Origin: Trissonchulus latispiculum
Taxonomy: Eukaryota; Nematoda; Enoplea; Enoplida; Ironidae
Assembly: GCA_030248195.1 (NCBI GenBank)
Contig: JASAND010020726.1
Location: 1 to 64,000 of the forward strand
Direction: 5' to 3'
DNA length: 64,000 nucleotides
Of the stretch, positions 30,126-60,023 are shown piece after piece. Below the pieces are notes generated by a model, which was not told where the DNA came from, did no database searches, and worked only from the letters and a program-made list of their open reading frames with translations. A program made the translations under genes and the position numbers. The stretch's first letter is position 1. Each line of letters begins with the position of its first letter.

Positions 30126-30344
30126 CAAATGTCCATTCCTACCATGGCCCGAATTTTTCTGGACCGAGTGCAATCATGGCGCCTCTGTCTTTCGTTCTTT
30201 ACACTTACATCTAGAATTAATGGAGAGCAAACGGGTGATCTAAGAAGGAGCTTACGAGACTTTTATGCCATTTTAAATATACAAGTTACCCCTAAAAGGG
30301 GAAGTATTCCTGGCCCGGTGTTGTTGGATGTAACGTGGTTTTGA

Positions 30345-31015: not shown

Positions 31016-34000
31016 TTAGTCTTGCGGGTCTTCAGAGTTAGGTTCGGAACTGTTGTCGTTTTCGCTATCGTAGGGATCATCATTGGAGCCTTCATCAGTT
31101 AGTCGCTGAACATATTCAATCTTTTTCGTAGATTCATTCAGGCGCATGAGGAAATTTGATCGGAAGGCATTAATCTGAGCATTGTCCGCGGAGGTTTGGT
31201 CCTTGATTATTTGGTTTGTTGTGAGCTGGAAAATCTCCTTGACACTGGGATAGAAAGCTGCAACAAGAATCTGCACGAATAGAGCTATGTAAGTGTTATT
31301 GTAGGAAAACATGACATAATGCATAATAGAAGAGCAGATAATTATAAAAATGTGATAGGGAATTGAATACCCATAAATTTGCCGCGTGGAATCTCGGTAT
31401 TGTCAGGTTTGATTTCTTGTATATTAAGTCGACAACGCAAACCATAGGTGAGCTTGGAGGTTCGGAAGGTTTGCATGCAGTTGGTGGCTCTATGCTTGAA
31501 ACAGGGTCCTTTTGGCAATTGGGACGGATCAAACTGAATATGTTGATGACAAGAAGGACACTGTCTGAAAATATGAAGAGATAACATCAGTATAAGATGA
31601 AAGTTAAGGGTGTGGGCTACGAATTTCACTAAAAGATCGATGTTGGAAAAGCTAGCTAGGCTTTTCCCGTATAATAGTATTAGGTTTGGTGCAAAACAGT
31701 TTAGTTTCAAAGAATTCCACCTAGCGTAGCATTCTGTGGAGCCCTCGCAAGGTGGTGTTAGCTGGTTCGAAACTAGACATTACACGCAAGAAAACTTCGC
31801 TGTGTGGTGAACGCTGTGTGCAAAATACAGTGTCGCAATTTGGCAGAGCAATATTTCTATGTGTTTTTGGACATAAAACTTTTGCTATAGTCACAAACTA
31901 GGAGAGATACAAACTTTACTTCAAATCATTACATGAGCATCACGAACACAAGCTGAAATGCTTAGTTTCAGATTCCACAGAAACCGATTTGGTCATTCTC
32001 AGGATTAAAGCATTAATTAAACTGTTCTGTTGATGACGTTGATTAGGCCTAAGTAACCGGGATCTATTTGGCTGTTCGTTGTTATCTTATCTAGCATTTG
32101 TTGCAATTAAATAACAACATATGCTTAAAGGCGACACTTAATCACGAAGCGGACATTTAAGAAGTGATGCAATAAGTTTAAGGCTGCCTCATTTGCATAA
32201 TCTGCGTATGGCAAACATTCTTTCATTTTGTATTGCAGTCAAGGGAGGTAACGTAATAACTTTGGTAAAGATGAAGAAATGTTTGTTGGGACCCCCTGTG
32301 AAAGTACAATGGATTAGAAAAACTTAAAAATTTCATCCCGGATAAGAACCCACTGATTCTACAACCCTCTTTTCCAAATCTTTAACTTTATAACATTGTT
32401 TGACCAAGGTCCCCTCTATCTAAAAAAAGGGAGCCGCTAGGATTACGTGCTAAGCATAGGCACTGCTTTTAGTAAAGGAAAAATTTCAGTTCAAAAGTGG
32501 GTGCACCCATTACAAATATTTCGCCTTCGGCGAAATAAAAATGTCAAGCTACATTTTGATATAAAAATGGCTTCTTAACTCCGAGTAATGAATGAGTAAT
32601 AATGGTGCAAATTTTATGTGACCAAAGGGAATCACCACCTTAACTGAATGAGCCCAAGTTCTCTGCAATCAATAATCCAAGTATTTGTGTGAATTTGTGT
32701 GAAAATTATATGATTGCCACTGTTATTTGGTGGCACTTCAAGGATGTGAATCAGTTACTCCAAGGTACTGAGGCAGAATCATCTGAAACTTTGCACATTA
32801 TAAGCTGATGACTGTACTAAGATTTGCAGAGAGTTAGAGCAGTAAGCCTTCCCGCACTGCTTAGAAATAGTGAATTACTTTCTCGAAGTAGGGGTGAAGA
32901 TCGATTCGAAATGCTGTAAGATAGTTGTAAGGGCATAATGAACGAAGGAAGCGTCATATCGAAAAACGGATTTGATATTCGGATTGAGGAGGTGAAAGAA
33001 CCCCTATAAGCAGTTTTGCAGCAAAATCAGTGACAATAAATTTGTTGGCCCTATTTTTGCTGGGCTTAGCCAGCTTTTCAAGGCTAAAAATCAGGGATAT
33101 TTCGTAACAAAAGCTTAGATAGCACACTAACCGGAAAACCAAAACCCTCTAAACTTAGCTACAATATGCCAAAATTAGAGTATAATAAATGGTAAAAAGC
33201 TGAGGTAGGCTAGGGGCTGCCAATTTTATTAGATCGAAAACGGCGCAGGGTCACCTCACAAGTTTTTGCTAAATTTTAAACTTCGACGTGTCATTGGTGA
33301 TGAAGGAAGCAACGCTCGAAAGTCGGAATACGTTCAAGATATAGTACCAGTAACAGATAACAATTTTGGCGGAAAGTTTTAAAATTGGTCAAACCGTTAA
33401 TGCAGCAGAGCTGAAAACAGCTTTCAGAAAAATCCCATGTTTCGCACCAAAATTAGCACTTTGCCGTTCTGCGAAAAACGCTGTATATGAGATATATTGT
33501 TGGCCGGTTTTAGGAAAACGGTTTTACTTTGATATGTTGGCTAACGTTGTGCAAAAAGTAGTTCTCTCCAACGACTTTCTTGACATAATTCGTAAGTTTT
33601 TGATGAAAGTAATTAATTGGAAAATTTGTAGTTTAACAGGTATATATTTAATTGAGAGTAGCAAAAGAGTAGAAGTTGCAAAAAATGTGAGGCATCTAAG
33701 TTAGCATTGATATGGGGAAAAGTTTAAAATTTTGACATAGATTAAAAGTATTATTCTTCGGAAAATTTAGAGTCGAATACTGTGCTAGCAGCAGATTAAG
33801 TCTGAAATAAAGCTAATTTCTATTATTAGCAAGTGGGAGGTATGGTAAATGTGGAGTAGCAAATGCACATGCTCATTGGATTTTCCTGGTACGCGGTAAA
33901 AGTAATACAAGAACTACAACATACTGTTCTGTCTTCGCTGTCAGAGACGCAAATTTGGGTTTCCGCCAAAAATGGCAAGGTTTCGAAATCGAAATTGTAC

Positions 34001-37000
34001 AAAAAATAACTAATCGTTATCTCACTTTCATGATTGTGAGCATCTGCTGTGACTGTACCAAGTCAGGACCAAGAGTGCATAATCGCTCTATATATAAGAA
34101 GAAGAGTAAGGCACTAGAGGGCTCCTCTTCTTGGCATTGTGTAACGGTGCTCCGACCACAATACGCGAATGTTCGTCCGTTTGGTGGGGGGTAGCAGAAA
34201 AGAGGTCGTCGTTTGGTGGTGTGGTAGCCAACAGCCAATCAGACTGCAGAAACGCCCTCCCAGTTTGGTGGGGGGGTTAGCAAAAAGAGGTCCCCGTTTG
34301 GTCGGGGTGTAGCAAAAAGAAGTCCCCATTTGGTGGGAGGGGGTACGCAAAAGAGGTCCCCGTTTGGGAGGGGGGGGGGTTCGGCAACCGCCAATCTGAT
34401 TCAGCATACCCCCCATCTGATATAGCTTTTGTATACCCCCCACCAAACGGAGTGGGGGTATGCTTGTCGACCGCCCCACCAAAAGGGGGAACATTCGCGT
34501 ATTGTGGTCAGTAGTATAAAAACCCCGGTTCTAGACCACTTAGCTAATAGTTCTGGCTTCTACTGGCTTTGCGCTTTTACACACTAGTAGCTACAATGAA
34601 GTTCTATACCCTTAGCCTTAAATTGAATTAGCTTTTTACGACCTAGGGTTTGTAACAACTATGACCTTGAAATTCTAACTAGCCTTAAAATCCGTAGTAG
34701 TATAGGAGAGGACAAATGGGAGCTCAGTATCAAATCATCACTTTATTTATTCAACAAGCATATGCATACAGTATTTATCAATACAAGTTCCACAAGTAAC
34801 AATCATTAAGTTTATTCAATCAATACATGACCATACGCAAATGAATGGATACCATCGTCAAGTATATATCGTTTGTCATCATAGGCGCTTAATCCTACCT
34901 TGCACCGCTGTACTGTAGTCAGTTGATGACCTCTTCTATCTATACTGCTCATGATATGTCGGGTTCTACCTCCATGCATTAATATTCGCTTATAATCTTC
35001 GTGCCTTAGTCTAACTGACCTATTAAGTCCCTTTGCCGCTGTCTTATCATCACCTTCACACTTGATGCTGTACATCTTTGCCCTTAATCCGACAAACTCG
35101 CTTATTGGCTTACCCTTGACTTCATCCTTCATCTTGCCTATCACCTTCTTGTTAGTACTGCTATAAAGTGGGTGGTCCTTAGGGTAGTTACTGGTATCGA
35201 ATAGGTCAATGTCCTGGCTCATATCCTGGTAAATGTCAGGGGTTGTCACATGGTAGCAAAAGCTGTCCGTGTCTGTGTACAGTAAGCTAACCCTGTCACC
35301 GTACTTCTGCCTCATGTAGTTATAGTGAAAGTTGTACATGAGGTATTTTGACAGTTCAAGTACAGTGAATCCTACATACACGGGTTTGCATAGCTTGACT
35401 GTACGTTTCTCCATCTGCACTGCTACCAGGTCCTCTGAAAATGCCTCACAAGCCTTGTACCTAGGGTTTGCAACTAACTTCTCAAACTTCTCTGGGCAGG
35501 TGACTAGTCTAACATCCACATGGTTGCGGACGTTCTCCATCGTTTTCCCGAATACCGCATTGTTCATCAGTTTGTAAAGATCTTCTTCAAACTTACTTTT
35601 CGCCGCTGCCCTCTTAACCATATTCAACTCAATGTAAGGCTTCATCCACGCCTCCTCCTCAAAGGTCACCCCTCTATGTATCTTCCTAATCACTAACCCT
35701 TGATCTATGTATTGCTGCAGGGTATGCTTGTGTATGATATAATGAGTCTTATTGCGTAGATTAGGTACTAACTTCTCACACCGCATGTACCCTCCTTGCT
35801 CCTTACTGTATGGCGATATCATCTGCTCAGTAATTGCAATCCTCTCGGGTGCAAGTGGGTAGTCATTGTGAGCGTTGTGTAGATGCTGCGGGTAGTCAAG
35901 GTCAACCTCAAGGATGCACGGAACTTCTCTCCATTGCTCCAAGTTGACCATCCACCTAAAGTTGCGTACAGGGAGTTTCTGGACCATTGACCAACCGTAT
36001 AGATTGTTCATATCCACGTAGGTGATGTAAGAGGTTGGCTGCTTAGGGTCATACCCATCGAGCAGTGGGTTATTGGCCTTTGCGTACCGTTGGGCAACCA
36101 TTGCCACCCCACCTCTTATACCATCTTCAAAAAACTTGTACATATCTGGATCAGTCAAAAGATCTAACTCCTGTCCAGTATACTTGAGGCAGGCGTCCCA
36201 GGCAAATGAAGGTAGAGTACAGTAGTGGCAAGGATCTAAGCCATACGTTTTCAGGCTAGTCTTGCGAAAGTTCTCTACCACATCTGCCAATAGTAGGACA
36301 TCTGTTCTCAAGTATTCGTCATGATACTGTCCCATATTCTCTATACCTAGCTCATTCCACACAGTCTTTGCATGTTCATAGTCTCGGATGTCAATGTCGC
36401 TATCAGTTAGTGTGCTGTGGAAGGCTTCAATGGGTGGTAACTGAGCTTCACTAAATCTATCCCACGAGTCCATATACTCATATGGGTAAACTCCCTTTCT
36501 TCTCATCAGTGAAAGCTTATCTCCGTAGACACTAGATGTGAATGTAAAGTCTTCATCTGTCAGTCCGTCTGCCAGTGTATCCAACGATCTATTCAGGAAC
36601 TGGTAACTATCGATGAATCTAATACGCCACTCCTGTTCGACATTCAGTTCAAAACAAAGGTAGTCTTCTAATCCCTTCGGTACACAGGTGATGTCTAACT
36701 TAAACTCTTTGCTAATCTTCCCTACCTCTTGCATAATCAGGTGCCCGTCGTATCGTCTCAGGTTATGGAACATTACAGTCACCGTCCGACCCAGTTTATA
36801 CTTTAGGTTACACCGCCTATGGGCATACCCCCTGAAGGTGCCACAAATGTGACAGTGGTCTCGGGTTGATTCCCCATCTGCAATCGTGCCATGACATAGG
36901 TGACATTCACTACCATGCTGAAGGAGTCGCTTGGGCAAACGTGGGTATTTATTCAATCGTTCCTGATATTGTTGACCTTTCAGTAGGATGGCTCTAAGGA

Positions 37001-52000: not shown

Positions 52001-55000
52001 CGGCTCTTTTGAAACTGCTTGACTCTGCCATTGATAACTGTAATGAAAAACTGGAAATTAAGATCTGTATTATCAAATTAAAAATTTAAGATTAAGTTAT
52101 ATTCCGTGATTTATGAAGTAACAAAGAATATTTTGAAAAGCAATATGCTTAGTATTGTAATTTGAAAAAGTAGAATTAGGACGACGCACATACTTCAATT
52201 ATATGAAAGTTAAAAATATAGTTAAATCTAAGTAGATGTAGAGTTAGGACTTGTAAATAAGGAAACATACTCCTTATCCAGGCATTCTCAGGATAATCGT
52301 TGGTAGCATATGTATCCCAGAGAGTGACAGTAACCTGATTCATACTTTGATCGCAGACAAGTAACTGAAACATTAGAGGCAAGGATTACAGAATCGATTA
52401 TTTAAAACTGATACAGTAGTATGTACTGAACATTCTCAACTCCGTTCCCTTCCCTGAAGTTTCGTGTAAGGGTTCTCATCTTGTAGTGGTTACATACTTT
52501 CATTCAAACGAATGCCTGTTTGCTGATTCTCTAATTAGCGTTTAATAATGTAAATTATCAGTAATTTTTATGAATTAATTATAACGTTAATTAGGTTAAT
52601 GTAGGTAGTTAAAAATAATTAGACAACTTTGTTGCATTTTTCTGCTATTTCCGACGATTTTCGATGTGTTGTATAAAACAAAACTTCCTATAAGAATGTA
52701 GTGCGCAAAATTTTTTCTTTCATTTGGAAACTACAAAAATGCTACAACGTTATTGAATTAGTATTCAAATGAATTAAACTAATTCAAACGTAATAATTAA
52801 ATGCGGTTGTGAAAAGTTGAGCTGTGCAAGGGGGTTTATATAATCTTTGGAATCGATATATGGGGTATAAGGAAATATGTTATGTCATAGTCTCCATACC
52901 GTTTTCATTTTCTTTGGCTCTGGAGAATATGAAGTTGGCTTCTTATCTACGGATCCCTGTTCCAAAACGTAGACCTCCAAAGACAGCAAACTGTCTAGAT
53001 TAATAGTCTTTACATCCGATACAGAAGCTGGCTTAAATTCAATGTCCGAGTTTGAATCCAATTCTTTCCAAACTGCCTAAAATTGTCATTTTCAGCAGAA
53101 GTAAAAGCAATTACTGTTTGTACTGATGTATATACTCTTAGCAAAGCCAATGCTTGATTCAGAATCAAAGCTTTTTGAGGGATAGTCCAAGTCATTAAAA
53201 TTTGTTCTTATGCAATTTTTTATGGGAAAAACAGTGTTCTTCTAAAATTAAAAAATTTAAATTGATGCTAAATTTTTTCTAAATATGTTATTTTAACACC
53301 TGCCCATTCTGGGTAAGGCGACTGGACTTGGATTCTTATATGTGTAAAAATTAAAAAACAAGTCTAATTTGTTTGTAAGAATCTTCGAACACGTCTAATT
53401 GTTAGTAGTTTAGCGTAAACTCTAAAGTAATTGAAGTTAGAAAAATGGTTTTGACTTATGCTGGAATCTGCTTATCATCGGTGAGGGGACGGAAGTAGAC
53501 TAGCCAATGCAAGTCTTTTGCAGATTAAGTAAAATTCAGGTCAATGTTTAGTTTTTATTTGTAAAATTTCTTGCAGTAGAAGAAATTTCGACCGTTTTTG
53601 TTTGCTTGATCATAAAGACGAACAATTGCAAACTTGGTGCAGAATATGGATCCGTGACGCAAAAATTGGTGTGTAGAGCTACCCTCTTGCACATCACTTT
53701 CAACTAAGATTTCGGAAAAATCTAGAGCGGATATAAGAAAACTAATTGCTGAATCAAGAACTATTGCACCCAAAGATCGTGACTGAAAATGCTTTGGGTC
53801 TGACTCAAGCAGTGCCTGTGCTAAGGGTACATCGATTACTATAATTGAACATGAGCGAAATCGGTGACTGTAAAAATTAGGTAACCGGCGCACCATAAAT
53901 TTTAATGTTACTTTCTGCAGGCAGTACGAACTTACAGTTATATCTAGTAACAGTTCATATTTGGTTTCTGTCACAGATAAGCTATGGTGCAGTCCAGGGA
54001 CATATGGCGATTTGATGCGAAGTCCGCCAAATTTGAATACGCCATTCAGATTAAAGTTGTCCAACATCGATGCATCAAAGCAGATTATTCGGCACGAAGC
54101 TGTTTTGTCCATAACAAATAAACTGAACATGGATCCACTGTTAGTCGTCCGAAGTGGTGATTTGCCGACAATTTTAACAATTATTGATCTTTCCAAGATT
54201 TTTGAAGCCGATCCTTGGGATGGCTCCAGGCTAATGAGGCTTGCAATCTCTGAAATGTAAATGCAGTCGTTCAATTTCTTGTATAACTTTAGTATCTACT
54301 TTCAACTTACTGAAATCTATTTCCTCTATTGCTAACCCAGCTGCTGATGTAAGTCTGGACAGCGCTACATACATTTGACCAGGGCCAAACAGTTTAGGTC
54401 CTACATTAACTACAGCTTGCTGAAGTGATTGACCTTGACTTTTATGTATAGTAATAGCCCACGACAGCATAAGAGGAAATTGAATACGTTCGATGTTTTG
54501 GCCATCTATTATAAATTTAGCACTAACTCTGTTAATTTTAATGGGTTCTGTTTTGTCCCATAGCTGGTTGTTAAAACGTATGACACAAGTGGGATCGACG
54601 GGATTGTCATCCTCAAATTTTGTAAGCGTACCGATAGCGCCATTTACAAGACCCTGAGGCACGTCTATGTTTCTTGTTAGCATTACTGTACATCCTGGGA
54701 TAATGGAGATTTGTTTAGGTAATCCCCCGCATAACTGTTCATTTTCTAAGTCTGGAGACTCTATTTTTGTTGTTAAGCTAAACTTGTCTATGGCATCTAA
54801 TTGTATTATCTTATGTTTTGACTTTTTTTCCAGTTCTTGTAATTTTTTCAAGTTGTATTGTTGGCATTGCTTTTTAGTAGGATAAAGTCGAATTGCGGAT
54901 TCGAATGCAGTATCATGTAAATGAGCACCTATACGCGATTGCAAAAGTTTGACATCTTCTCCAGTCAATTTGCCAATTCGAATCCGATTTAGCATAGAGG

Positions 55001-58000
55001 CGAAGTAGTTGTCATTCTGTTGTCTAAAATTTTGTTGCAAAAAGAAAGGAATGACTGTATCTCGCCATAAGTGAATAATCTCAGGACCTAATTTACTGTC
55101 CTGAAATATCCATTTTCCTGAAACAGGTTTTAGTTGTAGCAGGTCGCCGACGAAAATAACATTTTTGTTGCCAAATAATGCGGTATTATCAGCAATTTCT
55201 TGTAGTCTTAAGTTTACATTTTGCAGAACGGAATAAGAGAGCATACTACATTCGTCTATTATTATAGTGTCCATATGCTTGAATTTGACTCTTAAGTCGG
55301 AAAGTTTTGCTGCTGACAATGGCACGTAGCTCCCATCGCGCTTTTTTAAATGTTTAATTGGCAAACATAGTCCACTATGAACAGTTACTCCGCCAATACA
55401 GCAACTCGCCATTCCTGTAGTTGCGGTTAATAGAGCAGACCTACATTGATAGTAACGATTTATGAAATCTTCAAGAAATTTAACTAAAAACGATTTTCCA
55501 GTGCCTGCTCCGCCAGTAACGAAAATTGAAAAGGAAGGTTTGCAGACGTTATTTGATTCGAAATGAGTTTTGATGTAATTTACAACTTCCATTTGTGTGT
55601 TACTTAATGCATTTAGTCTCTTCAGAAATTTTTCGTCTGAGTAGTTGTAATGAAAACACTCTTTTGACGTTGTAGAAGAATGTTCGTGAATAGCAGGAAA
55701 AATGTTTAAGCTAGATTCCTCAGTGTCCTCACCATCGTGGTTGGAGTGGCTTGTCGCCGGATTCAAATTAATTTTAGACTGTTCGTTAAGTGTAGTTGCT
55801 AGCTGTAGGGCAATGGCAAAGTCTTTTTCAAAAATTTCGTACTTTTGAGAAATAGGGTCTAGTTGTGATTGTTTTGCAAGAAAGCAGTCATAAATACTAG
55901 AATAGCCAAGGAGCAGATCTTCCTCCATGCGCCAAGGAATAAATGCACAAATTTTGAAGTATAGAAAATCTTCAATTTGGCGTGGAATTTTAAAATTTGG
56001 AAAAATTAGCGCTCTCTCTTTCCTCCTTTTTACTATAACCTTTTCTGAATGCTTTAGCTTCCACCTTTTGCTTGTTTTCGTTGCATCGGCTGAAATGCAA
56101 TTATACCAAGCTGCAAAGTGAGCCAAACTCATGACATTAAATAAATCATTATCTGGCCGTTCACTGTAGTCATCGAAAATATTGTGAACGTATATATCTT
56201 TGCTGTCTTTGTCTAACTTTGCACGTTCCTTTTTTGATTTTAAGATTCTAAATCGTTTTGTGGGAAGATACACATTTAGATAAATAGTTTCTCTTGTTGA
56301 TTCTACGTACGGATAACTGAGTATTCTCCATACTGCTTCTTGTGCGCTCACTTCTCGCATGCTTAAAATTGTACTTCCAATTTTGAATAATTTTTTCCTG
56401 TCAGATGAATTCGATGGAATTGTTTTAAGTGCTTCTCCTAATAAAGTCTTCAAATCCTCCGGCTCAGTTTTGCACATGTACGCGCATACGTATAGTGCAA
56501 TTCCATAATAAGACCCAACCAACTGTATATCATGATTCGCCCTCCATGTTAGTGAAATAGTTGGGTTAAAAGCATTAAGGTACCTGTCTTTTTCCGTTAA
56601 TCGTTTTCCTATAATTATTCGCGCTTGATTACCGCCATCACTTTTCTGTCGTAATCTCGTTCTTTGGCTTAGTTGATATGGTATATCGAATCTACACTTA
56701 CCATTCCTGTTGCAGGTTTTGGTATGTTGATGAACTTGCACCTGAGATACTATTGAAAACAAAGTGGGATCTTTGTGTTCATCTGGCATTGTTGTGTTGA
56801 CGTATTTGTCGTAGAAAGTACAAATTTTTTCTTCTCCGTCTTCCAAATTTGGTGCTCCTTTTATCCAAAGGAAAATATGCAAATGAGGGGATCCCCGTTT
56901 TTGAAATTCAACTCTAACGAAATAATCTTCAATTTTGCCGAGAGGTTGATGCTTTCCCTTTAGAATAAACTTTAAAAATCCTTTCCAACGTCTCCTAAAA
57001 AGACGTACTACGTGAACTGTATTTTTGTTGATCCATTCTGTTCGGTTTATGTTTGTCTCATCTGTTTTAAACACCTGATTAAACTCCGGCCATAAATCAC
57101 TAGTATCAGCAGCCGATAATGTTATGAACCAAGTAGGTGCACCAATTAATCTTACTTTTGCCAGAAGGCATTTCAACTGATGATGTAAATATGTTGAGTA
57201 TCCTCTAAGAGAACGAAGGTAAGAAAAACAACTTTCTAAAAACTGTGGAGGTATCCCTGTTTCTAAATGCTGTTCTGAAAAGTTGGTAAACTTTGAAGTT
57301 CGAAGAGCAATTCCCACAGCGTCGGACACTTTTTTAAATTCTAAAATGGAAAGAGCATAAAAAATATATAATACATCTTGCTGGAATCTATTGTCCTTTC
57401 CTAGCAGACGTCGTCTAAAATATTGCAGATAGGACAATTTTCTGGTAGTTTCATAACCTCCTCCACCAAAAGGAAATAAGTGAGGGAAAATTTGTTCCTC
57501 ACAGTTTACCCTGTCAAAAAAGGAAATTGGCTGATTAAAGTTTTTTCCAATTTTTATTGCAAGTCCATTTTTAATGAAACTTTCTACGTCAATATGTCTA
57601 GGTTGCATTGCAGATGTCATTGCAACTGTTTCGTTAATAAGATAGGACTTCATCTCAGGTTTCGTAGTAGGTGCTACTTTTGTTCCGTTTTCTAAAAATC
57701 GAATAGTATCGGCAACATCTGTTCGTTGGTAGTGCAAGTTATTTTCGTGTAACCATTTTAGCGCCTTCGTAAGTTTAGAAATTTTTATAACATTTCCATG
57801 GCCAAGTTTCCGTTTTCTTTCGTTACTATAAGGTTCAACAAGTACTAAATCACTTGCTAGCTGCGTTGGCGAGAAATGCTTAGTATAAAAATTGCTTAGG
57901 TTTACTGGTATATTTACAGCTTGCCCCTTTTCACCGTACTGTCCACCAGGTAAGATGACTATGCTGAGAAAAGGGTGAACTAAACTTATTAAGCGGGCTT

Positions 58001-59480
58001 CAATACTGGTCAAGCTTGAAAGTTCCAGTGGCAATTCCCCGCAATTTGCTTGAAAATTATCCGTGATGTCATTTTCTAATGTATTTATTTTTTTGTAGCA
58101 ATATGAACATAACGGAAATATTTTAAGCTTGCAGTGCTCTATTTTTGACGTGAACTTTGCTTCCTCTTCAAACATCGTTACTGCACACATTTTGCATGCA
58201 AACTTTAATTCCTTTCTCAAATATTCGTGAAATTTAGTGCAGTCTTCCCTTTGCTGTTTCAACTTTAGTTTGCACTGTTCAGTTGACATTTTCCCACATC
58301 TACTTTTCTTTTTAGAAGGATTATTCTTTACCACCTTTTTCCCTTTATCAACGCTAGATCCAGTTGCGACGGTATTATTATTTTTATGTACTTTATCAAT
58401 CAACATGTTGGGCTTACCTTCCGTCACTAACTCCAGTTTTTCTGCTGCGTTCGAGCGTTCAATCTTCTTTGAATCTCGACGTTTTGTTTCCGTCGGCGTC
58501 CTCCGCTTTCTTGATCGCGTCTTTGGCGTCTCCTCAGCTTTCATTTCCACAGTCGTCGTCGCTGTTTGTTGAGTTTCCTTCGTTTCGTTCGTCTCGTTTT
58601 CTTCTGGTTCAAGGCTGTCCATTCTTCCGATATCTACACTCACACTGCCTGAAACAATTTGTCTATAAACCAATAAAAATACGTTTGAATCATTATTAAT
58701 ATTAAAGCCACCTTTATCTATCTTGCATGTGAATGGATCAGGAGTCCCTGACCTGTTCATGTCATCAAGTTTCATCCAGCACTCATTCCTTTTCACTACA
58801 GGAATAAAGTGACTACCAGTTGCTAGAACTACACCAGCTAATTTATAGGACCGGTTCAATATTCCAACGTTGAACTCAACATTAATGCTGTTATAACAGT
58901 TACTACCTATTGCAACTACTAACAAACGTGGCATATTATGGTCAACGTTCATTCGTTGCTCTGTTTGGCACGATCCGCAGAATCTCTGCCTACACTGCAT
59001 CTTTAAGGATTCCTTCACAGCTGCCTCTATTGAAGCACAAGTATTTATTATATCAGCTGTTATGTAAAACGGCACACTCAGTTTGTCATATTTCGAGTAA
59101 TTGCAGCATCGACATGTACTGATTCTCACTATAGACATGATCTCATCTGACCCCTCTAAGCTTTCAAACAATTCTGCAATTTCAGCTGACATTGTGCCTA
59201 ATGGCCTAAAGCTCAAACAGCAGTCTCGAACAGCTATCCAAAGTTGATTTCTTGCTTTGAGTATACAATGTTGACTATTACCATTAGCTTCTCTATTCGA
59301 ACAAGCCTTTAATAGTGCCATCCCAATCTTGCTTTTGCTTTCCCTCATCCATGTTCTGCAATCTTTGCTTGAACTATATATTCCATAATAAAATAAATCA
59401 AAGAATGTGTCCACTGCACATGAATAAACATTAGGGGACAAGAAACAGCTATTTACGCACCACTTTCCTAAATCAGCCAT
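31016..59480 (-). CDS. Helitron-type USP-HUH-PIF1 helicase-RPA70 fusion gene, seven exons
   Basis: Exons (minus): 59480-54311, 54249-53936, 53076-52900, 52364-52271, 52037-51839, 31564-31371, 31257-31016. All junctions are GT-AG and in phase, total 2129 residues. Exon 1: USP-like N-terminus (Cys21 box SCAVDTFFDLFYY; zinc-like CRCC...CGSC; His box near 225, GSHFIPVVKRNECWMKLDD), Helitron-like region (near 516, LPGGQYGEKGQ), HUH motif SPHLHIFLWIKG near 863-875, catalytic Tyr region YGIALYVCAYMCKTEP near 997, PIF1 Walker A GGAGTGKS near 1325, Walker B IIIDECSML near 1408, and HKSQGQS near 1683. Exons 2-7 match RPA70 DBD-A (MFSLFVMDKTASCRIICFDA), DBD-B (VTVTLWDTYA...INGRVKQFQ) and zinc-bearing DBD-C (CPSCHQHI...C...C), with an acidic tail. 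Roles: strand nicking, unwinding and ssDNA binding in rolling-circle transposition. The fifth intron (~20 kb) holds the Polinton. Less likely, helicase and RPA are separate genes. Confidence 0.75.
32518..32536. repeat. Short GC hairpin followed by AAAAATG (family member 2)
   Basis: ATTTCGCC-TTC-GGCGAAAT, a perfect 8-bp stem followed by AAAAATGTCAAGC, immediately upstream of the dispersed repeat copy at 32545. Confidence 0.8.
32545..32640 (+). repeat. Dispersed repeat, copy 2 (first copy at 7905-8045)
   Basis: Shares AAGCTACATTTTGAT(A/G)TAAAAATG, (T)ACTCC(G/A)AGTAATGAATGAGTAATAA and GGAATCA(C/A)CACCTTAA with the copy at 7905-8045. It lacks the internally repeated AATGAATGAGTAATAA block. Confidence 0.7.
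34070..34160 (+). repeat. Left terminal inverted repeat of the Polinton, interrupted
   Basis: Pairs with 50135-50225 over most of its length. The match resumes at 34689-34715 (GTAGTATAGGAGAG...AATGGGA(G)CTC), so about 530 bases have been inserted into or expanded within the left repeat. Confidence 0.75.
34154..34509. repeat. Fold-back insert with perfect 21-bp arms and G-rich tandem units
   Basis: Positions 34154-34174 (GACCACAATACGCGAATG...) recur inverted at 34489-34509. Between them a unit of about 35-40 bp (GTTTGGTGGGGG...AGCAAAAAGAGGTCCCC) is repeated about five times. No gene. It sits in the left Polinton terminal repeat. Confidence 0.85.
34812..38141 (-). CDS. polB: Protein-primed family B DNA polymerase (Polinton pPolB)
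   Basis: A single 1109-codon frame. Exonuclease motifs: YADFECLLE (Exo I, near residue 315) and HNLRRYDGHLI (Exo II, near 457). A His/Cys cluster CHLC...RDHCHICG...RRCNLKY (near 415-450) resembles the endonuclease VII-type zinc fold usual in Polinton polymerases. Polymerase motifs: YVDMNNLYGWSM (A), KLMNNAVFGKTMEN (B) and LLYTDTDSF (C, catalytic Asp-Thr-Asp). The N-terminal third includes KCFMWSILAGLHP, a conserved stretch in these proteins. It replicates the element's DNA from a protein primer. It is the leftmost gene, transcribed toward the left terminal repeat. The frame looks intact, so the product could be active. Confidence 0.95.
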   Translation of the reverse strand: MIMTLQRQAASLRGYYRWYRITPEESTNDPKEFLLDCTEAIQSLIGDRALKMQLRLHILFINEITNETMSSYFASKQTIIIPGEDMPMNSMINRILTNIEEFQRNGSGWVIDHVRYLDIHLAKYRPLYGSTYVPLPKSLTAKKAIINPKNTDNKCFMWSILAGLHPMKDHANRVVKYQQFVDELNFEGLEFPMKLTDIPKFERQNDVSVNVYGYDRSVHILYLSRTKREKHLHLLLVDNQHYCLIKNLGRLLHDQRKDEHRKYFCNHCLFPFPTEDKCNNHQKLCSTDNLQITVMPSSTKLKFQNDHRRLMRPYVIYADFECLLEKIDTCQPNPYSSYTNRYESHRPCAFGLVDVLQCCEGMPVVRGEPLIYRGEDAVQQFLRAILLKGQQYQERLNKYPRLPKRLLQHGSECHLCHGTIADGESTRDHCHICGTFRGYAHRRCNLKYKLGRTVTVMFHNLRRYDGHLIMQEVGKISKEFKLDITCVPKGLEDYLCFELNVEQEWRIRFIDSYQFLNRSLDTLADGLTDEDFTFTSSVYGDKLSLMRRKGVYPYEYMDSWDRFSEAQLPPIEAFHSTLTDSDIDIRDYEHAKTVWNELGIENMGQYHDEYLRTDVLLLADVVENFRKTSLKTYGLDPCHYCTLPSFAWDACLKYTGQELDLLTDPDMYKFFEDGIRGGVAMVAQRYAKANNPLLDGYDPKQPTSYITYVDMNNLYGWSMVQKLPVRNFRWMVNLEQWREVPCILEVDLDYPQHLHNAHNDYPLAPERIAITEQMISPYSKEQGGYMRCEKLVPNLRNKTHYIIHKHTLQQYIDQGLVIRKIHRGVTFEEEAWMKPYIELNMVKRAAAKSKFEEDLYKLMNNAVFGKTMENVRNHVDVRLVTCPEKFEKLVANPRYKACEAFSEDLVAVQMEKRTVKLCKPVYVGFTVLELSKYLMYNFHYNYMRQKYGDRVSLLYTDTDSFCYHVTTPDIYQDMSQDIDLFDTSNYPKDHPLYSSTNKKVIGKMKDEVKGKPISEFVGLRAKMYSIKCEGDDKTAAKGLNRSVRLRHEDYKRILMHGGRTRHIMSSIDRRGHQLTTVQRCKVGLSAYDDKRYILDDGIHSFAYGHVLIE
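38142..38375. other. Spacer upstream of the polymerase gene
   Basis: About 230 bases, AT-rich, without a gene. The ATAAAAAC box seen before other Polinton genes is not present here. Confidence 0.5.
38376..38714 (-). CDS. Small secreted cysteine-rich protein of the Polinton, unknown function
   Basis: A 112-residue frame starting MLLLLSLIAIVSSVDITET, a clear signal peptide with probable cleavage near residue 14 (after S-S-V). The mature part has six cysteines (C-x(4)-C, then two Cys flanking HYIEWDQCWEYCYD) and one N-x-S/T site (GNIST), then a Tyr-rich C-terminus. It lies between the polymerase and the protease gene. It is not a core Polinton protein. A secreted or envelope-associated accessory product is possible. 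I do not recognise a family. Confidence 0.6.
   Translation of the reverse strand: MLLLLSLIAIVSSVDITETENGIQLSQGNISTVLESDHLYRRLEDCSLHLCREGDLSHRSNACHYIEWDQCWEYCYDTDRRLQSIHDKMTGFKIANTSELEYLRGALSEYYY
38746..39210 (-). CDS. Adenovirus-type maturation cysteine protease (Polinton PRO)
   Basis: A 154-residue frame with the order of catalytic elements of the Ulp1/adenain fold: GEHWVAMWLE (His), VEYFDSYGLPP (Asp), a Gln equivalent near LQDFTTD, and DVCGEYCIYFL (nucleophile Cys, CGxYC as in adenain). Family members cleave capsid and core precursors during virion maturation. Its start overlaps the last 4 bases of the capsid gene, consistent with co-transcription. The C-terminal KSHKK is basic. All catalytic residues are present. 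Confidence 0.9.
   Translation of the reverse strand: MNTREILETLRKDCKVPLLGVFPSDKLPRYRPGCLVANTEASGEAGEHWVAMWLEDNRVEYFDSYGLPPLLFMSYIGRRELQYNRIQLQDFTTDVCGEYCIYFLHHRSRGRSMDSIVNYLRRRSDTNDNIVKTFVDRVTLEPTPYCQKSHKKSA
39207..40526 (-). CDS. Double-jelly-roll major capsid protein of the Polinton
   Basis: A 439-residue frame. The N-terminal motif KSEMDLFSLPPTQVSVESGY is diagnostic of Polinton/Maverick major capsid proteins. It continues with YLYLKLRITDSDG, an asparagine-poor but recognisable strand containing PINMLAKSFIRRLVVKL, and the YHYGAYLETIANFGKEAK segment (standard: Y-P-Y-R-A-Y-L-E-T-L-x-N-Y-G). Trimers of such proteins form pseudo-hexameric capsomers of icosahedral virions. It is somewhat shorter than some Polinton capsid proteins, but no break is visible. 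An ATAAAAAC motif lies about 45 nt upstream. Co-linear with protease downstream and pVI-like gene upstream. Confidence 0.92.
   Translation of the reverse strand: MAKQVDERSMPGFKSEMDLFSLPPTQVSVESGYMAEIYPLNPVTSNGPYLFLVPKDSYMLDLNRNYLYLKLRITDSDGKAVAKAADGSISVAPINMLAKSFIRRLVVKLSDKEIYNSGDLYHYGAYLETIANFGKEAKTSHLQSNLFAKDSDFNDISTTAAKHRGIPFTDGRYVVVAGPLHCDLFKQDRYLLSECQLSLELHRNSDDILLQSATSGYKLLVDDIRWYVWKVRPQDSLTMAIEGVLRDHETAKYPIRRTKLVTRHIAPGVQTVVENSIFTGQLPRRVLVAMVKSEAFNGSQKHNPLEFQHCNVSEIALKYGDEFVPKQPMKMAWDKFQYTMPFIYLYEGNDMAGSTKGADISYEDFAKGYTIFAFDLTPDNIDTGAMQLIKEGDVSLRMQLEKALPAATYPQGVEIIIYGEFDNLISIDYNRTPFFDYAL
40561..40578 (-). promoter_or_regulatory. ATAAAAAC box upstream of the capsid gene
   Basis: Minus strand CCCATAAAAACCCGCCC, about 45 nt before the ATG at 40526. 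Same core as the boxes before two other genes and in the 10.5-kb remnant. Confidence 0.5.
40572..40958 (-). CDS. Minor virion protein resembling adenovirus pVI/pX-like Polinton proteins
   Basis: 128 residues, strongly basic, with two Gly-rich tracts: GSGFYAGQRYQRGDGLGSLL near the N-terminus and QQGEGIGSRPHRRKVKRLKR near the C-terminus. An amphipathic helix-forming segment (IGRFIWPVVRRVGLEAGRQAFQ) lies between them. Polinton proteins with this layout occur next to the capsid genes and are compared with adenoviral membrane-lytic or DNA-condensing minor proteins. It overlaps the upstream minor capsid gene by 32 bases. The ATAAAAAC box before the capsid gene lies within its 3' end. Assignment rests on position and composition. 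Confidence 0.65.
   Translation of the reverse strand: MRTRYHPETVEDWQLHLIQRGSGFYAGQRYQRGDGLGSLLRGIGRFIWPVVRRVGLEAGRQAFQTAGDVARDYLNRGEDPKEALKRHGKAAIGRLLENSGKAIQQGEGIGSRPHRRKVKRLKRDIYSP
40927..41712 (-). CDS. Minor capsid (penton-like) protein 2 of the Polinton
   Basis: 261 residues, paralogous to the preceding gene 41709-42473. Both start M-x-F-Y-L-Y-(V/L), then an H-x-L-x-x-x-W-(S/E)-V-A-(M/L)-V-(D/E)-x-x-Y-P segment. Both also share a Y-D-E-x-R(V)-type middle and a C-terminal stretch (here HINNHIGRSVHFEYGSIVIK; there HIKDDHGMAVDFEYGKVFAK). Single-jelly-roll penton proteins of Polintons carry these features and occupy the fivefold vertices. Its ATG overlaps the stop of its paralogue by 4 bases, a tandem duplication arrangement. 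Confidence 0.8.
   Translation of the reverse strand: MSFYLYVTGKDGTFENQLAHPLHLHGRWSVAMVDFIYPHTWKAINSNADTFIIVLFEADERAVSNIPRRRYYNLHDLINTINLTIQSILNERQESPPIRFVYDQEKDRVYLDLYENPEHLERPNFGFIQFAPTIVRMLGFDSQKFTVEDGRDALRTKKFYAQRPPSLNFHYLQVHCDIVKEQLVGTTTGNLLAVVKAGEEYGDTIQYSPEPHYVPVNKHVINSIKVHINNHIGRSVHFEYGSIVIKLHFKKDEDQISSRNR
41709..42473 (-). CDS. Minor capsid (penton-like) protein 1 of the Polinton
   Basis: 254 residues with the N-terminal signature DFYLYLPSN...F-R-V-K-L and VDLEGEWEVALVELGYPVTW, very characteristic of the Polinton minor capsid (penton) protein. The FSKQLKYMLGY segment is another family hallmark. It sits between the integrase (overlap 29 bases) and its own paralogue (overlap 4 bases). 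It is likely the canonical penton, the other copy being a specialised duplicate. No lesion visible. Confidence 0.88.
   Translation of the reverse strand: MDFYLYLPSNTADYPTNKLHNFRVKLPHRVDLEGEWEVALVELGYPVTWFNVGNKDDAKLGVTVGKKTFHNHIPLNNYESIFQLCDAINYTLELTKKINCELAYDELHRRVGLKPTTLDEEPDFKALHFSKQLKYMLGYSDTKVVPKEKTVSPPRYAVAANAPDLRGGLYSLFIYCDVVAPQMIGNTIAPIIRVVSIEGKHNDTVDRIYNNPHYIPVLRKEFDSIEIHIKDDHGMAVDFEYGKVFAKLHFRKRR
42445..43602 (-). CDS. Retroviral-type integrase with C-terminal chromodomain (Polinton INT)
   Basis: 385 residues. The N-terminal ~35 residues are Asn-rich low complexity. The core has LWQIDLADM (first Asp), FNCIDVFSKYAWV, LQSDRGKEF (second Asp) and SLVERFNRTIKTKIW (Glu), the complete D-D-E triad. 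The C-terminus carries a chromodomain, VIKTRRRKGRKEYFVKWLGYPDKFNSWI. Integrases of this family insert Polinton DNA and leave 6-bp duplications. Chromodomains may target specific chromatin. The ATG overlaps the 3' end of the 180-aa gene by 16 bases. It appears intact. Confidence 0.95.
   Translation of the reverse strand: MEAALENTDTDANINNNNNTANGNTNSGHNSTLEKIYYDPQSPAAFGGINRVYQEAKRHGISRSKVTDWLEKQYTYSIHKPVRHRFQTRRYQVAGIDDLWQIDLADMVSIADKNDGYKYLFNCIDVFSKYAWVIPVKSKGGQEMTRAFRKILADGRRPQHLQSDRGKEFLNKDFQSLLKANHINFYTCNNPVIKCSLVERFNRTIKTKIWKYFTKTRSYRYIDDLPQLVEGYNNARHRSIRMTPVEASKPENMEEVNRALRRGSRGETQPGLKKGDMVRISKSKGLFDKGYLPNWSEELFRIRSVRTGDPPMYLLEDYGGEEVIGGFYQPEVQKVDEPDTYWVEKVIKTRRRKGRKEYFVKWLGYPDKFNSWITEDNGFLPIPTQ
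43587..44129 (-). CDS. Conserved Polinton 180-aa protein of unknown function
   Basis: 180 residues with homologue (broken) at 10944-11625. Features: VLEKEASNVL near the N-terminus, ADYRRRILRDRP, PDIVSTLPPTLQQKGRHLIE, GEIEYQGQPAVGSRIYDLIH, and a C-terminal basic tail. Predicted mostly helical. It lies between the 111-aa protein and the integrase in both copies, so it is a conserved part of this Polinton lineage. No enzyme motif is visible. A second Met at codon 6 (ATGGAATAC) could be the true start, since the remnant starts at the equivalent place. Confidence 0.8.
   Translation of the reverse strand: MSKATMEYSILVKPDYFDEHTRVLEKEASNVLKSKLPADIKSKLFKQADYRRRILRDRPTEMTVKSHAMPDIVSTLPPTLQQKGRHLIEHIMSIPGLKVNSRGEIEYQGQPAVGSRIYDLIHDFIRNRPSQPPATGWQTLAKALRDSNVPRELIGNPRYINIQTGQGIRSALRKLKWKRH
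44134..44148 (-). promoter_or_regulatory. AATAAAAACTGAC box upstream of the 180-aa gene
   Basis: Minus strand ATAATAAAAACTGAC lies just upstream of the ATG at 44129 (or its downstream Met). The extended form ATAAAAACTGAC is identical to the box at 44501. Confidence 0.5.
44145..44480 (-). CDS. Conserved Polinton 111-aa basic/hydrophobic protein
   Basis: 111 residues: Arg/Lys-rich N-terminal two thirds with four Cys (LLCRCKSRK; ICDCAEN), a KKRVSLKKKKKLIIQ stretch and a Gly-rich hydrophobic tail HGGFLPALLGPIVGIVSGLL. A full-length homologue is at 10611-10943. The tail could insert in membranes or mediate virion assembly, but the function is unknown. It is located immediately downstream of the ATPase with a 2-nt gap. 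An ATAAAAACTGAC box lies 20-35 nt upstream within the ATPase 3' end. Confidence 0.8.
   Translation of the reverse strand: MDRFERNIDTLRLLCRCKSRKQREAIVLHGSSDLIKAICDCAENILSGNVKISQKDKKRLARYKHALRALRKKRVSLKKKKKLIIQHGGFLPALLGPIVGIVSGLLGNLIR
44483..45133 (-). CDS. Genome packaging ATPase (FtsK/HerA superfamily, Polinton ATP)
   Basis: 216 residues. A P-loop variant (VAAPTKAGKTTFVSRL) near residue 17, Walker B AKLVVLDDLM near 90, and the downstream arginine/sensor region RGCHHWSCSVINITQDIF are typical of the A32-like packaging ATPases of Polintons and related viruses. It pumps DNA into capsids. A damaged homologue lies at 9876-10478. The start at 45133 is the first Met and gives the standard length for the family. 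An ATATAAACAG sequence lies about 35 nt upstream. Confidence 0.92.
   Translation of the reverse strand: MERVRTPKFQHPFTCIVAAPTKAGKTTFVSRLVEHADEMISEPPEKIIWCYTEWQDAYDNLPQVEFVKGLPDLEKLKTPDAKLVVLDDLMSEIKQQPNLVQLFTRGCHHWSCSVINITQDIFYDRQRTNRINSQYIVLMKNPADKLTPMNLARQMYPGRVKGFMEAFEHATSRPHGYLLIDLDQNTPEKLRLRGHIFPDDPYTDVYSIKTDNIKKE
44501..44516 (-). promoter_or_regulatory. ATAAAAACTGAC box upstream of the 111-aa gene
   Basis: Minus strand TTCCATAAAAACTGAC, about 20-35 nt before the ATG at 44480, inside the 3' end of the ATPase gene. Identical in 12 bases to the box at 44134. Confidence 0.5.
45313..45528 (-). CDS. Small hypothetical Polinton protein, basic then acidic
   Basis: 71 residues. The N-terminal half is basic (YHKNKCRRYPRQK), the C-terminal half acidic (NEDEVVEELILDDEDMMD). 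No known domain. It lies upstream of the ATPase gene in the same orientation. Could be a genuine accessory gene or a chance frame. A TATA-like ATATAT lies just upstream at 45535-45541. Confidence 0.35.
   Translation of the reverse strand: MGIYKALQSLIRLSRYHKNKCRRYPRQKIIISIPGIGWRRILHVDMKQLINEDEVVEELILDDEDMMDTTK
45577..46047 (-). CDS. Hypothetical membrane-anchored or secreted Polinton protein
   Basis: 156 residues with a single strong hydrophobic segment near residues 33-55 (IITSLLIKFLLSTIVLAILL), followed by a Cys-containing extracellular-like domain with two N-x-S/T sites (NGS and NET) and paired cysteines (CLNFQCPVY; PCPYTST; CLDQDKRVLCGF). This suggests a signal-anchor or signal-peptide type glycoprotein. 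A Met at codon 8 (MATGANS) is an alternative start. It overlaps another short minus frame at 45866-46198 that I cannot support. An envelope-like or host-interaction role is speculative. No family is recognised. Confidence 0.5.
   Translation of the reverse strand: MPYKILTMATGANSQEGHSFLNYTKLQLVKGVPCIITSLLIKFLLSTIVLAILLSQHTQCKLPPLKDSVTIDNAIFIHNGWTEHLVSLDSFHEIRQFIYNCLNFQCPVYINGSIPCPYTSTYNETTLCLDQDKRVLCGFVGPVSFTADQIYQLYSQ
46198..46692 (+). CDS. TATA-binding protein (TBP)-like protein encoded by the Polinton
   Basis: 164 residues on the plus strand, opposite to the core genes. Two direct repeats with the TBP pattern are seen. Repeat 1: IVNVVLSGRFDRELHLTNI..., RGFIGG..., TFQLFTSGSFVCLGCKS. Repeat 2: VVNLVGSFSVGRYIDLRNL..., CYEPELFNGLTCKIAGVTAL and IFHTGKVILTGARS. 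YEPELFxG and (F/S)-x-x-G-K-(V)-x-x-T-G-A-(R/K)-S are the most conserved signatures of TBP. In TBPs the pseudo-symmetric saddle binds the TATA minor groove and bends it. The length equals one TBP core with no N-terminal extension. The two DNA-inserting Phe pairs are not all present by eye. It probably serves element transcription. Confidence 0.82.
   Translation: MIVNVVLSGRFDRELHLTNIPNIRLYRGFIGGSLKHEEATFQLFTSGSFVCLGCKSIERANQCIRQLAGALNVGILREGEVVNLVGSFSVGRYIDLRNLYESIRHTHQVCYEPELFNGLTCKIAGVTALIFHTGKVILTGARSESALSDARSLVNKKVIRFKVH
46699..47085 (+). CDS. Hypothetical 128-aa protein next to the TBP-like gene
   Basis: A plus-strand frame starting 6 bases after the TBP-like stop, probably in one transcript. 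The N-terminal 80 residues (RIEITGHYVAVMTIGSKSW...AIEEVSRKAYGTL) have a beta-beta-beta-helix look vaguely reminiscent of a double-stranded-RNA-binding fold. The C-terminal 45 residues are charged and helical (IDAVRDKMRDLREYKRYRR). The homology is too weak to assign. By position it may be a transcription partner of the TBP-like protein. Confidence 0.55.
   Translation: MSARSLLNELLQKALRQSPPIRIEITGHYVAVMTIGSKSWTSSQCPDPRTAIEEVSRKAYGTLCHGDEHLIRRECGLPPRPHIYEIDAVRDKMRDLREYKRYRRSIQPIYNMLDRLEAEMLKNPFFHG
47086..47413. repeat. AAT/ATA microsatellite between the plus genes and the CARD gene
   Basis: Intergenic spacer with (AAT)n tracts at about 47213-47256 and 47305-47365 and short imperfect duplications (cagtgttat, ggtttactg). 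No gene. Confidence 0.85.
47414..48142 (-). CDS. CARD-domain protein carried by the Polinton, two exons
   Basis: Exon 1, 48142-48124 (MNFVENG), splices with an AATG|GTAAGA donor to exon 2, 47919-47414, after a TTATGTTTCAG acceptor, giving 174 residues in phase. Residues about 8-90 show the six-helix pattern of a caspase-recruitment domain: KIIDNLVILCDEMDPAPVAD, EHRRITPDYRDIIKSE, a D-x-x-x-x-L-L-L-R-L, then PLLHEALVKSKQYNLAKLF. The C-terminal 80 residues (KIYTKSKYLLRESQDTF...WNHQE) are unassigned. CARDs mediate homotypic assembly in apoptosis and innate signalling. A short element-encoded CARD may act as a decoy or inhibitor. It is the only clearly spliced gene in the element, which suggests capture from a host gene. 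Death-fold type (CARD versus DD/DED) was judged by eye. Confidence 0.7.
48143..48409. other. Upstream region of the CARD gene
   Basis: No gene. The 5' part of the CARD transcript and its promoter would lie here. Confidence 0.4.
48410..48930 (+). repeat. Tandem array of three ~160-180-bp units
   Basis: Phrases TTTTCATAGTCA(A/C)C, TTATTACTAACTAATTAG, ACAGGTGACCGAAGTTAGTTCA, CTCTTTACGT and CGTAATTGGAGACATAAAATTATAATCACCC recur in the same order three times. Each has point differences and small deletions. Non-coding, near the right end of the Polinton. Confidence 0.85.
49010..49537 (+). repeat. Minisatellite, 96-bp units (about 5.5 copies)
   Basis: GACAGGTTTGAGTCCTCAGT starts at 49082, 49178, 49274, 49370 and 49466, a constant 96-bp period. 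A shorter 72-bp first unit starts at 49010. Two alternating end variants (GTCTTTT versus AAGTAGT) suggest a higher-order 192-bp duplication. Non-coding, inside the Polinton near its right end. Confidence 0.95.
49538..50134. other. Right subterminal non-coding region of the Polinton
   Basis: About 600 bases, AT-rich, with no gene seen. Precedes the right terminal inverted repeat. Confidence 0.5.
50135..50225 (-). repeat. Right terminal inverted repeat of the Polinton
   Basis: Reverse complement matches 34070-34160 and 34689-34715: ATACTAC, TGTGGTCGGAGC, ACCGTTACGCAATGC, GAGCCCTCT and TGCACTCTTG. Unlike the left copy it is uninterrupted. Confidence 0.8.
50226..51180. other. Intron DNA of the Helitron gene, right of the Polinton
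   Basis: AT-rich, no gene recognised. A 61-codon minus frame (50401-50586) has no support. Lies in the ~20-kb fifth intron. Confidence 0.5.
51190..51610 (+). repeat. TTTCAG hexamer-rich tract
   Basis: Dozens of perfect or near-perfect TTTCAG/TTTTAG units, interspersed with unique bases. Similar but shorter tracts lie near 24710-24740 (plus) and, as GAAACT, at 19740-19920. Lies in the fifth intron of the Helitron gene, on the opposite strand to it. Confidence 0.9.
53555..53935 (-). other. Open intronic frame with a GRF-like zinc-finger motif
   Basis: Directly after the proposed exon-2 donor (ACT|GTAAGT at 53936/53935) the frame stays open for 127 codons. It contains RHGSIFCTKF...DQANKNGRNFFYC, which resembles the GRF zinc finger (C/H-G-x-x-x...N-x-G-R-x-F-Y-x-C). 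If the intron is retained, the RPA-like DBD-A would end in this motif. A real alternative C-terminus or a chance extension are both possible. Confidence 0.4.
54250..54310 (-). other. 61-nt intron joining the helicase to the RPA-like exons
   Basis: Minus strand: TTTCA|GTAAGT donor at 54311/54310 and CATTTCAG|AGATTG acceptor at 54250/54249. Removal skips the helicase stop at 54231 and joins phase 1 to the RPA frame. Both splice sites match consensus well and the intron is AT-rich. Confidence 0.75.
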
Positions 59481-60004
59481 TGCTTACAAATATTAGCTTA
59501 CCTGATAAATATGAATACGTAGCCAAAGATAAGCCCTCTGATCATCAATTATTACTATTGAAATAGTTTTCCCTGTTGCATTAACCCGGACGCTTACAAC
59601 AAACAACTTCGCCAGACGCGAGTGCAAGATGTGGAAAGTGAATTGACACTGCTAAAACCTAATTTGCATAATCTAATTTGAATACCTTCATTACTTGTAC
59701 CAACTATAATTTGTATCCCTATCCGGAGGGGGCTTGTTCCAAATTTCATTTTCAAACATCCTTTCTTTTCAAATTAAATTTTAATAAATTTATAGTATTG
59801 AGTCATAAGTAGATCATGGAATTTAGTTGCAGTTCTTTAAATCATCGCCTTAAATACATTTTAAATAATTCACAGAAGCACATTTCGACGCTAGCCCTCC
59901 CCTTCATAAAAAAGACTCAATACTGGGTTTACACATATTTTATAGGAACTATCCTAATCACGTTTCTAGATTTCTATTGCGCAGAGGGTTGACCCATTTC
60001 AAAG

Positions 60005-60023
60005 ATTCCGCCTCCGGCGGAAT
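60005..60023. repeat. Short GC hairpin followed by AATAAA (family member 3)
   Basis: ATTCCGCC-TCC-GGCGGAAT, perfect 8-bp stem, then AATAAATTAGCC. Confidence 0.8.

Follow-up and report, generated by a model that had tools for sequence, protein, structure and literature searches.

An apparent Helitron2-type locus with RPA70-like exons downstream of the Rep/helicase gene in Trissonchulus latispiculum

Helraiser is a canonical Helitron that is not known to carry an RPA or an extra protease, and with the locus described here it shares an HUH domain and a PIF1-type helicase (7lcc). Plant Helitrons have been split into same-ORF and two-ORF types, and in the maize elements ZmhelB1 and ZmhelB2 the RPA domains DBD-A, -B and -C follow the helicase in the same ORF (passages of PMC3288121). 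The order and orientation of the Rep, helicase and RPA1 DBD-A, -B and -C domains in these maize elements are the same as here, but those are plant elements, whereas residues of the Helentron/Helitron2 type and a protease-like N-terminus are found at our locus, where the RPA comes after introns and after a helicase stop that is conserved. The RPAs of plant Helitrons have been treated as a distinct clade (passages of PMC4683698). RPA ORFs are also present in Helentrons, and the mite element Helentron-Mo resembles our locus in having a Helentron/Helitron2-type Rep/helicase (Rep/Hel) with the RG-S-P-H residues and an RPA70-like second gene with DBD-A and DBD-B; however, in the mite the RPA has an ORF to itself, of 358 aa and with no intron, whereas the one found here appears to be spliced, and Helentrons have a C-terminal AP endonuclease that was not found in our ORF (passages of PMC4067079). 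The first-pass annotation of this DNA held that RPA is usually separate from Rep/Hel, which fits the Helentron RPA ORFs of animals but not the same-ORF maize elements.

Additional cysteine protease domains are likewise known from Helitrons. Three VTD domains of zebrafish Helitrons, which belong to the Herpes_teg_N family, have been shown to be deubiquitinases (passages of PMC9741609), and OTU domains have been noted in Helitrons, with peptidase C19 in another transposase (passages of PMC2836005). The Helitrons carrying VTD or OTU domains thus resemble our locus in having an extra cysteine protease domain, but by motif the domain found here is USP-like and not VTD or OTU. The relative P0026 (2143 aa) also combines Rep/Hel with a USP/UCH-type domain (precomputed Pfam PF00443/PF13423), although that domain is C-terminal and our USP-like region is N-terminal. 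Since same-ORF Rep-Hel-RPA, RPA in Helentrons and deubiquitinases in Helitrons are all known already, the novelty of the locus is modest.

The window analysed is a stretch of 64,000 nucleotides (positions 1-64,000 of contig JASAND010020726.1, assembly GCA_030248195.1), and the locus occupies 31016..59480 on its minus strand (Table 1). When the seven exons proposed in the first-pass annotation were rebuilt from the window, the arithmetic was exact, with GT-AG at all six introns, fitting phases and a single terminal stop after 2129 codons. Exon 1 forms the 5' part of a longer ORF, which has its ATG at 59480, comprises 1749 codons without interruption and passes the proposed donor before its stop at 54233-54231.

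Table 1. Positions of the features discussed, in window coordinates
Feature	Position	Strand	Remarks
Exon 1 of joined model	59480-54311	-	1723 codons + 1 nt
Rep/Hel ORF	54231..59480	-	1749 codons + stop; USP-like N-terminus, DUF6570, HUH, PIF1 helicase, conserved C-terminal tail
USP-like N-terminal region	58590..59480	-	Cys21, His224, WMKLDD at 235; motifs only
Proposed intron 1	54250..54310	-	Read in the helicase frame, codes for most of the C-terminal tail conserved in the helicase
RPA exon 2, DBD-A-like	53936..54249	-	314 nt; begins 16 coding nt ahead of the Rep/Hel stop codon
Open continuation past exon 2	53555..53935	-	126 codons, no recognisable domain
RPA exon 3	52900..53076	-	177 nt; profile matches
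RPA exon 4, DBD-B core	52271..52364	-	94 nt; profile matches
RPA exon 5	51839..52037	-	199 nt; profile matches
RPA exon 6, zinc-ribbon part of DBD-C	31371..31564	-	194 nt; weak profile matches
RPA exon 7 + stop	31016..31257	-	242 nt; preceded by a weak donor
Nested Polinton	34070..50224	.	PolB, integrase, weak capsid match, TBP-like ORF; between RPA exons 5 and 6
Candidate 5' palindromic inverted repeat of the element	60637..60667	-	Single copy
Candidate 3' partner repeat	30281..30311	+	Single copy
Top-scoring donor of the list, CAG/GTAAGC	59501..59502	-	20 nt upstream of the Rep/Hel ATG
Second-best donor, AAG/GTAAGC	58417..58418	-	Follows the USP-like region; its phase fits acceptor 54249

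The Rep/Hel protein and its N-terminal region

The Rep/Hel ORF matches Helitron_like_N (PF14214, E = 6.1e-22), PIF1 (PF05970, 1.1e-26), DUF6570 (1.8e-12) and the PIF1 2B domain (2e-05) in Pfam, and it thus combines an HUH Rep domain and a PIF1-type helicase in one intact protein, as expected of a Helitron. With residues 440-1740 as the query, 405 of 7999 scored candidates were related at E<=1e-10, and the best 24 of these 405 are 30 to 38% identical over 71 to 99% of the query. An alignment of the ORF with 15 relatives (A1, 16 proteins) contains invariant residues in the regions of the motifs SPHLH at 864, YVCAYMCK at 997 and GGAGTGKS at 1323. Structures matched by the profile made from A1 include those of PIF1 and, across the helicase part, Helraiser 7lcc (E = 2.1e-70); through the N-termini of the relatives, the same profile also matches a chain named "ATP-dependent DNA helicase" (8add) and a herpes tegument deneddylase. 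A scan of viral contigs with the window ORF gave no relative, and in scans with profile A1 the best 80 of 574 viral matches and the best 80 of 587 genome-contig matches all covered the PIF1 part only (about residues 1264-1748).

A serine near the HUH motif is diagnostic in separating Helentrons from Helitrons, with the signature F/Y-x-R and RG-S-P-H (passages of PMC4067079). The HUH region of our ORF reads YFVRVEFQKRGSPHLH and has the F/Y-x-R and RG-S-P-H residues of the Helentron/Helitron2 group, although its middle residue, V, falls outside the w/l/y/k set listed in the same passages. No AP endonuclease domain was detected in the ORF (Pfam, E<=0.1), and PF03372 is present in none of the 24 best-listed relatives in a precomputed Pfam list; we therefore group the element with the Helitron2-like elements that have no endonuclease. 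With its intact HUH and PIF1 domains, exon 1 encodes a Helitron protein belonging to the Helitron2/Helentron type.

Residues 1-297 contain Cys21, Cys-rich pairs at 123 and 168, GSHF at 222 and WMKLDD at 235, an order that we take to be that of a USP protease. Computed comparisons support this assignment weakly. No UCH match was obtained, the closest matches of the N-terminus were TssM deubiquitinases at non-significant values (E = 1.3 and 1.5), and its alignment to the USP domain of P0026 was no better than those of shuffled sequences (156 of 300 were as good). Alignments to the N-termini of four relatives were not significant either, and a single-sequence structure model had a mean pLDDT of 34.3. 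The idea that the protein is processed by its own N-terminal protease found no evidence in this analysis, and in zebrafish Helitrons the cysteine protease domains at the N-terminus proved, where assayed, to be deubiquitinases (passages of PMC9741609). Because Herpes_teg_N is carried by 8 of the 16 proteins in A1 and zebrafish members of this family are deubiquitinases, we suggest, by analogy, that a role as deubiquitinase is the better guess for this region; both roles are inferences. In the titles, abstract openings and passages that we covered, we recognised no description of an N-terminal USP domain in a Helitron, which is not evidence of absence. The OTU and VTD deubiquitinases known in these elements may thus be joined, at this locus, by a domain of the USP-like kind.

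RPA70-like exons

Exons 2-7 look like the DBD-A, -B and -C domains of RPA70, as judged by weak yet collinear profile matches. The RPA1 model TIGR00617 (E = 4e-4) aligns residues 25-211 of the 406-residue RPA part with model positions 197-388 of 608 and spans the 2/3, 3/4 and 4/5 joins, while PRK12366 (E = 0.0025; residues 160-271) additionally spans the 5/6 join. Besides TIGR00617, two replication factor A models match the RPA part, at E = 0.0025 (that of PRK12366) and 0.017. With PF16900 (REPA_OB_2), exon 4 alone scores 14.8 bits, and neither exon 3 alone nor exon 5 alone gives a match; exons 3 and 4 together score 17.2 bits, exons 4 and 5 together 18.8 bits, and a trimmed piece of exons 3-5 scores 23.2 bits (E = 6.8e-5). 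The exon pairs outscore the single exons, so the joins add signal. The RPA70 domain order claimed for the exons is supported by the collinear TIGR00617, PRK12366 and PF16900 matches, all of which, like every other RPA profile score obtained here, lie below the curated cut-offs. The zinc-ribbon matches are weak.

In a phmmer search of PDB (E<=10), neither the RPA part as a whole nor exon 2 had any match, and exons 3-5 matched an archaeal replication factor A (E = 1.2) behind two actinohivin matches (E = 0.4). None of the 2602 word-sharing candidates among Helitron-length proteins matched the RPA part at E<=0.001, and none of 1490 candidates did so at E<=10 when it was searched alone, although these searches require shared exact words and do not imply an absence of relatives. 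The structure model of exon 2 had a mean pLDDT of 35.1, and codon-usage scores failed to separate the short RPA exons from noncoding DNA. The RPA frame also stays open for 126 codons past the exon 2 donor (53935-53555), an event with a probability of about 2.7e-4 in any one given stretch; among 1404 runs in the noncoding comparison, the longest had 104 codons. This continuation has no recognisable domain and one chance-level match, and the RPA1 order of TIGR00617 nevertheless favours the 2/3 splice.

The RPA frame opens only from 54295, and from the stop ahead of it up to the first OB strand it has no ATG, so that it must be entered from an exon farther upstream, by a frameshift or by initiation at a codon other than AUG. 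The best RPA acceptor is 54249. Candidate donors were ranked among the 362 GTs at 59600-51700 with a consensus table not derived from this genome. On this scale the donors at 31370 (TGG/GTATTC; score 0.84, rank 123) and 52270 (GGA/GTATGT; score 3.37, rank 64) are poor, and donor 54310 has GTAAGT but a poor exon side (rank 20). GTAAGT occurs three times on the minus strand of 51500-60500, one of these being donor 54310. When the tail was recoded synonymously 5,000 times, 2179 recodings had some donor as good but just 185 had an in-phase, well-placed one, which gives mild support for the use of 54310. Stronger donors in the same phase are present at 58417 and 56701. Strong donors exceed the codon-shuffle expectation in exon 1 by a mild margin: it has two donors scoring >=10.5 against a codon-shuffle mean of 0.30 (P = 0.038) and one scoring >=11 against a mean of 0.21 (P = 0.18). 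We also considered an RPA with its own ATG on a leader spliced from donor 59501, which ranks highest of the 362. Of the 14 ATGs in the 600 nt before this donor, the sole one that is open to it has a phase that does not fit acceptor 54249, and this candidate was rejected.

The conserved helicase tail and the possible products of the locus

Read in the helicase frame, 54310-54250 codes for the C-terminal tail that the family conserves, and a stop comes after it at roughly the point where the relatives end. The tail consensus near the end of the relatives is typically F-x-P-x-K-I-x-A-x-x-x-V-x-x-E-x-x-R-L-R. A tail profile of 26 relatives gave the unspliced ORF 22.0 bits, compared to 8.0 for the best of 2000 shuffles and -1.0 for the spliced junction. 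A second profile, built from 21 relatives that stop after the tail, gave the unspliced tail 17.5 bits; 5000 shuffles reached 8.4 at most, the spliced junction had -0.7, and the remaining two frames had -0.6 and -1.3. Among the 30 best relatives, 23 end <=50 aa past YVALSR, as does the window ORF (46 aa past); two of the 23, P0016 and P0017, end 16 and 18 aa past it and do not have the tail. In P0022 and P0030 the motif is a variant one, and the protein ends, as judged by eye, after 53 and 46 aa. The longer relatives are P0013, P0025, P0026, P0027 and P0029, and the tail is recognisable in all except P0027. As many relatives come from contigs apparently without gene models, they show that the tail and stop are conserved and not that a downstream RPA exon is absent. 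Because a candidate intron here coincides with a conserved helicase tail, the locus is a clean, testable case of possible dual coding.

The claim of a single polyprotein is unsupported as it was put forward, since the fusing splice would remove the conserved tail and stop of the helicase. An obligate protease-HUH-PIF1-RPA polyprotein with constitutive splicing of intron 1 would agree with the in-phase joins, the missing ATG of the RPA frame, the scarcity of in-phase GTAAGT donors among the recodings and the same-ORF arrangement in maize (passages of PMC3288121). It would, however, always delete a tail that is kept even in the C-terminally extended relatives P0013, P0025, P0026 and P0029, and the 2602 word-sharing candidates of Helitron length included no match to the RPA part at E<=0.001; we regard this polyprotein as improbable. 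Still less probable, in our judgement, is that the exons are decayed or unrelated, being a piece of a host or other RPA gene that adjoins the Helitron outside the element. The weak RPA profile scores, the two poor donors, the codon usage and element ends that are candidates only would all fit such a piece, but it would have to account for open exons that keep order and phase across 23 kb with collinear RPA matches, that start inside the Rep/Hel ORF and that are enclosed together with it by a flanking inverted repeat.

The conserved tail encoded across intron 1 and the stop that follows it, taken together with an RPA frame that has no ATG, favour two products from one pre-mRNA. Our preferred reading, held at about even confidence from the sequence, is a Helitron2-type rolling-circle transposon without an endonuclease that makes two products from one locus, with the fusion as an alternative isoform at most. 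Against it stand the open continuation of exon 2, the RPA scores below the cut-offs, element ends seen in one copy and the failure to find a first exon for a free RPA among the leader ATGs. The long exon 1 would give the complete USP-like/HUH/PIF1 protein, ending at the conserved tail and the stop at 54231. The RPA70-like gene (DBD-A, -B and -C), starting 16 coding nt before that stop, would be spliced into acceptor 54249 and reached from an upstream donor on the same pre-mRNA. Use of donor 54310 would yield a helicase-RPA fusion without the helicase tail, and the normal helicase end would be made when it is not used. We are doubtful about a more specific version, in which this short alternative intron acts as a switch that when retained leaves a complete Rep/helicase and when removed swaps the tail for a tethered RPA. 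From the in-phase donors 58417 and 56701, a protease-RPA protein could also be made from the same pre-mRNA, and a frameshift or a non-AUG start for RPA is possible. It is equally doubtful that Rep/Hel and RPA are separate and never fused, with RPA made through another first exon, another donor such as one of these two, a non-AUG start or a frameshift. That Helentron RPAs are separate ORFs (passages of PMC4067079) and that the donors at 58417 and 56701 are strong and in phase agree with this, but no open leader ATG has the required phase and the alternative routes are backed by consensus matches alone.

What holds of the fused seven-exon gene as first described is hence the exon arithmetic and the RPA order, set against an intron 1 made of conserved helicase coding sequence with a stop after it, the 126-codon continuation of exon 2, the poor donors at 31370 and 52270 and the 20th rank of donor 54310; of its interpretation, the intact Rep/Hel, the RPA70-like gene that comes next on that strand and the Polinton between exons 5 and 6 are retained and the obligate polyprotein is not. 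The ORF, the conserved tail, the collinear RPA matches and the nested Polinton can be seen in the sequence itself, and the choice of splice site, the ends of the element and each biochemical step are proposed. In the preferred two-product reading, we infer that the HUH domain would nick and attach, PIF1 would unwind, RPA would coat the displaced strand and the N-terminal domain would remove ubiquitin from some target, with the Polinton inserting later into the intron between RPA exons 5 and 6. If the RPA exons are expressed, a Helitron2-type element would here supply its own single-strand binder beside or attached to its replicase, like some plant Helitrons. No description of an RPA made by alternative splicing was recognised in the literature covered (titles, abstract openings and passages), and this is not evidence of absence.

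Element ends, the nested Polinton and neighbouring sequences

Helitron2 ends are asymmetric terminal inverted repeats with hairpins at both ends (passages of PMC5148889). Outside both genes we find a palindromic inverted repeat, 60637-60667 and 30281-30311 (E = 0.002), from whose two arms a search pattern was made, and this single-copy repeat could represent candidate Helitron2-type ends. The hairpins have fold z values of -1.28 and 0.15, no better than many shuffles, and a separate repeat listing of the window did not include the two palindromes. Three related palindromes are present in the window (8051-8084, 30281-30311 and 60637-60673), with arms that differ in step; the one at 8045-8095 has the best fold of the three against shuffles (z -2.19). 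A repeat is common to 8941-9298 and 60984-60158, and the copy upstream of the Helitron gene has 467 extra bases (60668-60202). Another, direct repeat (86% identical) links 7899-7971 in the left part of the window with 32538-32610, which is in the distal part of RPA intron 5 and outside the Polinton repeats.

The insertion in this intron is a Polinton by its PolB (PF03175, 1.3e-16), its integrase (PF00665, 6.3e-15) and a 94-bp inverted repeat that is 85% identical, with arms at 34070-34163 and 50132-50224 and a weak capsid match inside. It also contains a TBP-like ORF (46153-46692, plus strand) on the strand opposite PolB and integrase, which matches PF00352 (6.9e-29) and TBP in PDB (2e-15) and has two matched TBP stretches. 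To our knowledge, this is an unusual cargo for a Polinton. Viral-contig scans with the TBP-like and PolB proteins of the Polinton gave no relatives. The segment 9883-10444 has an inverted similarity of 66% to Polinton positions 45105-44543 and a weak Pox_A32 match (E = 0.002, plus strand), and is perhaps the remnant of a second Polinton. Elsewhere in the window, 12373-14496 (minus strand) encodes a reverse transcriptase, an RNase H and an integrase domain, a combination found in LTR retrotransposons, and 23663-24139 (plus strand) carries a Stealth_CR2 domain (9.3e-23).
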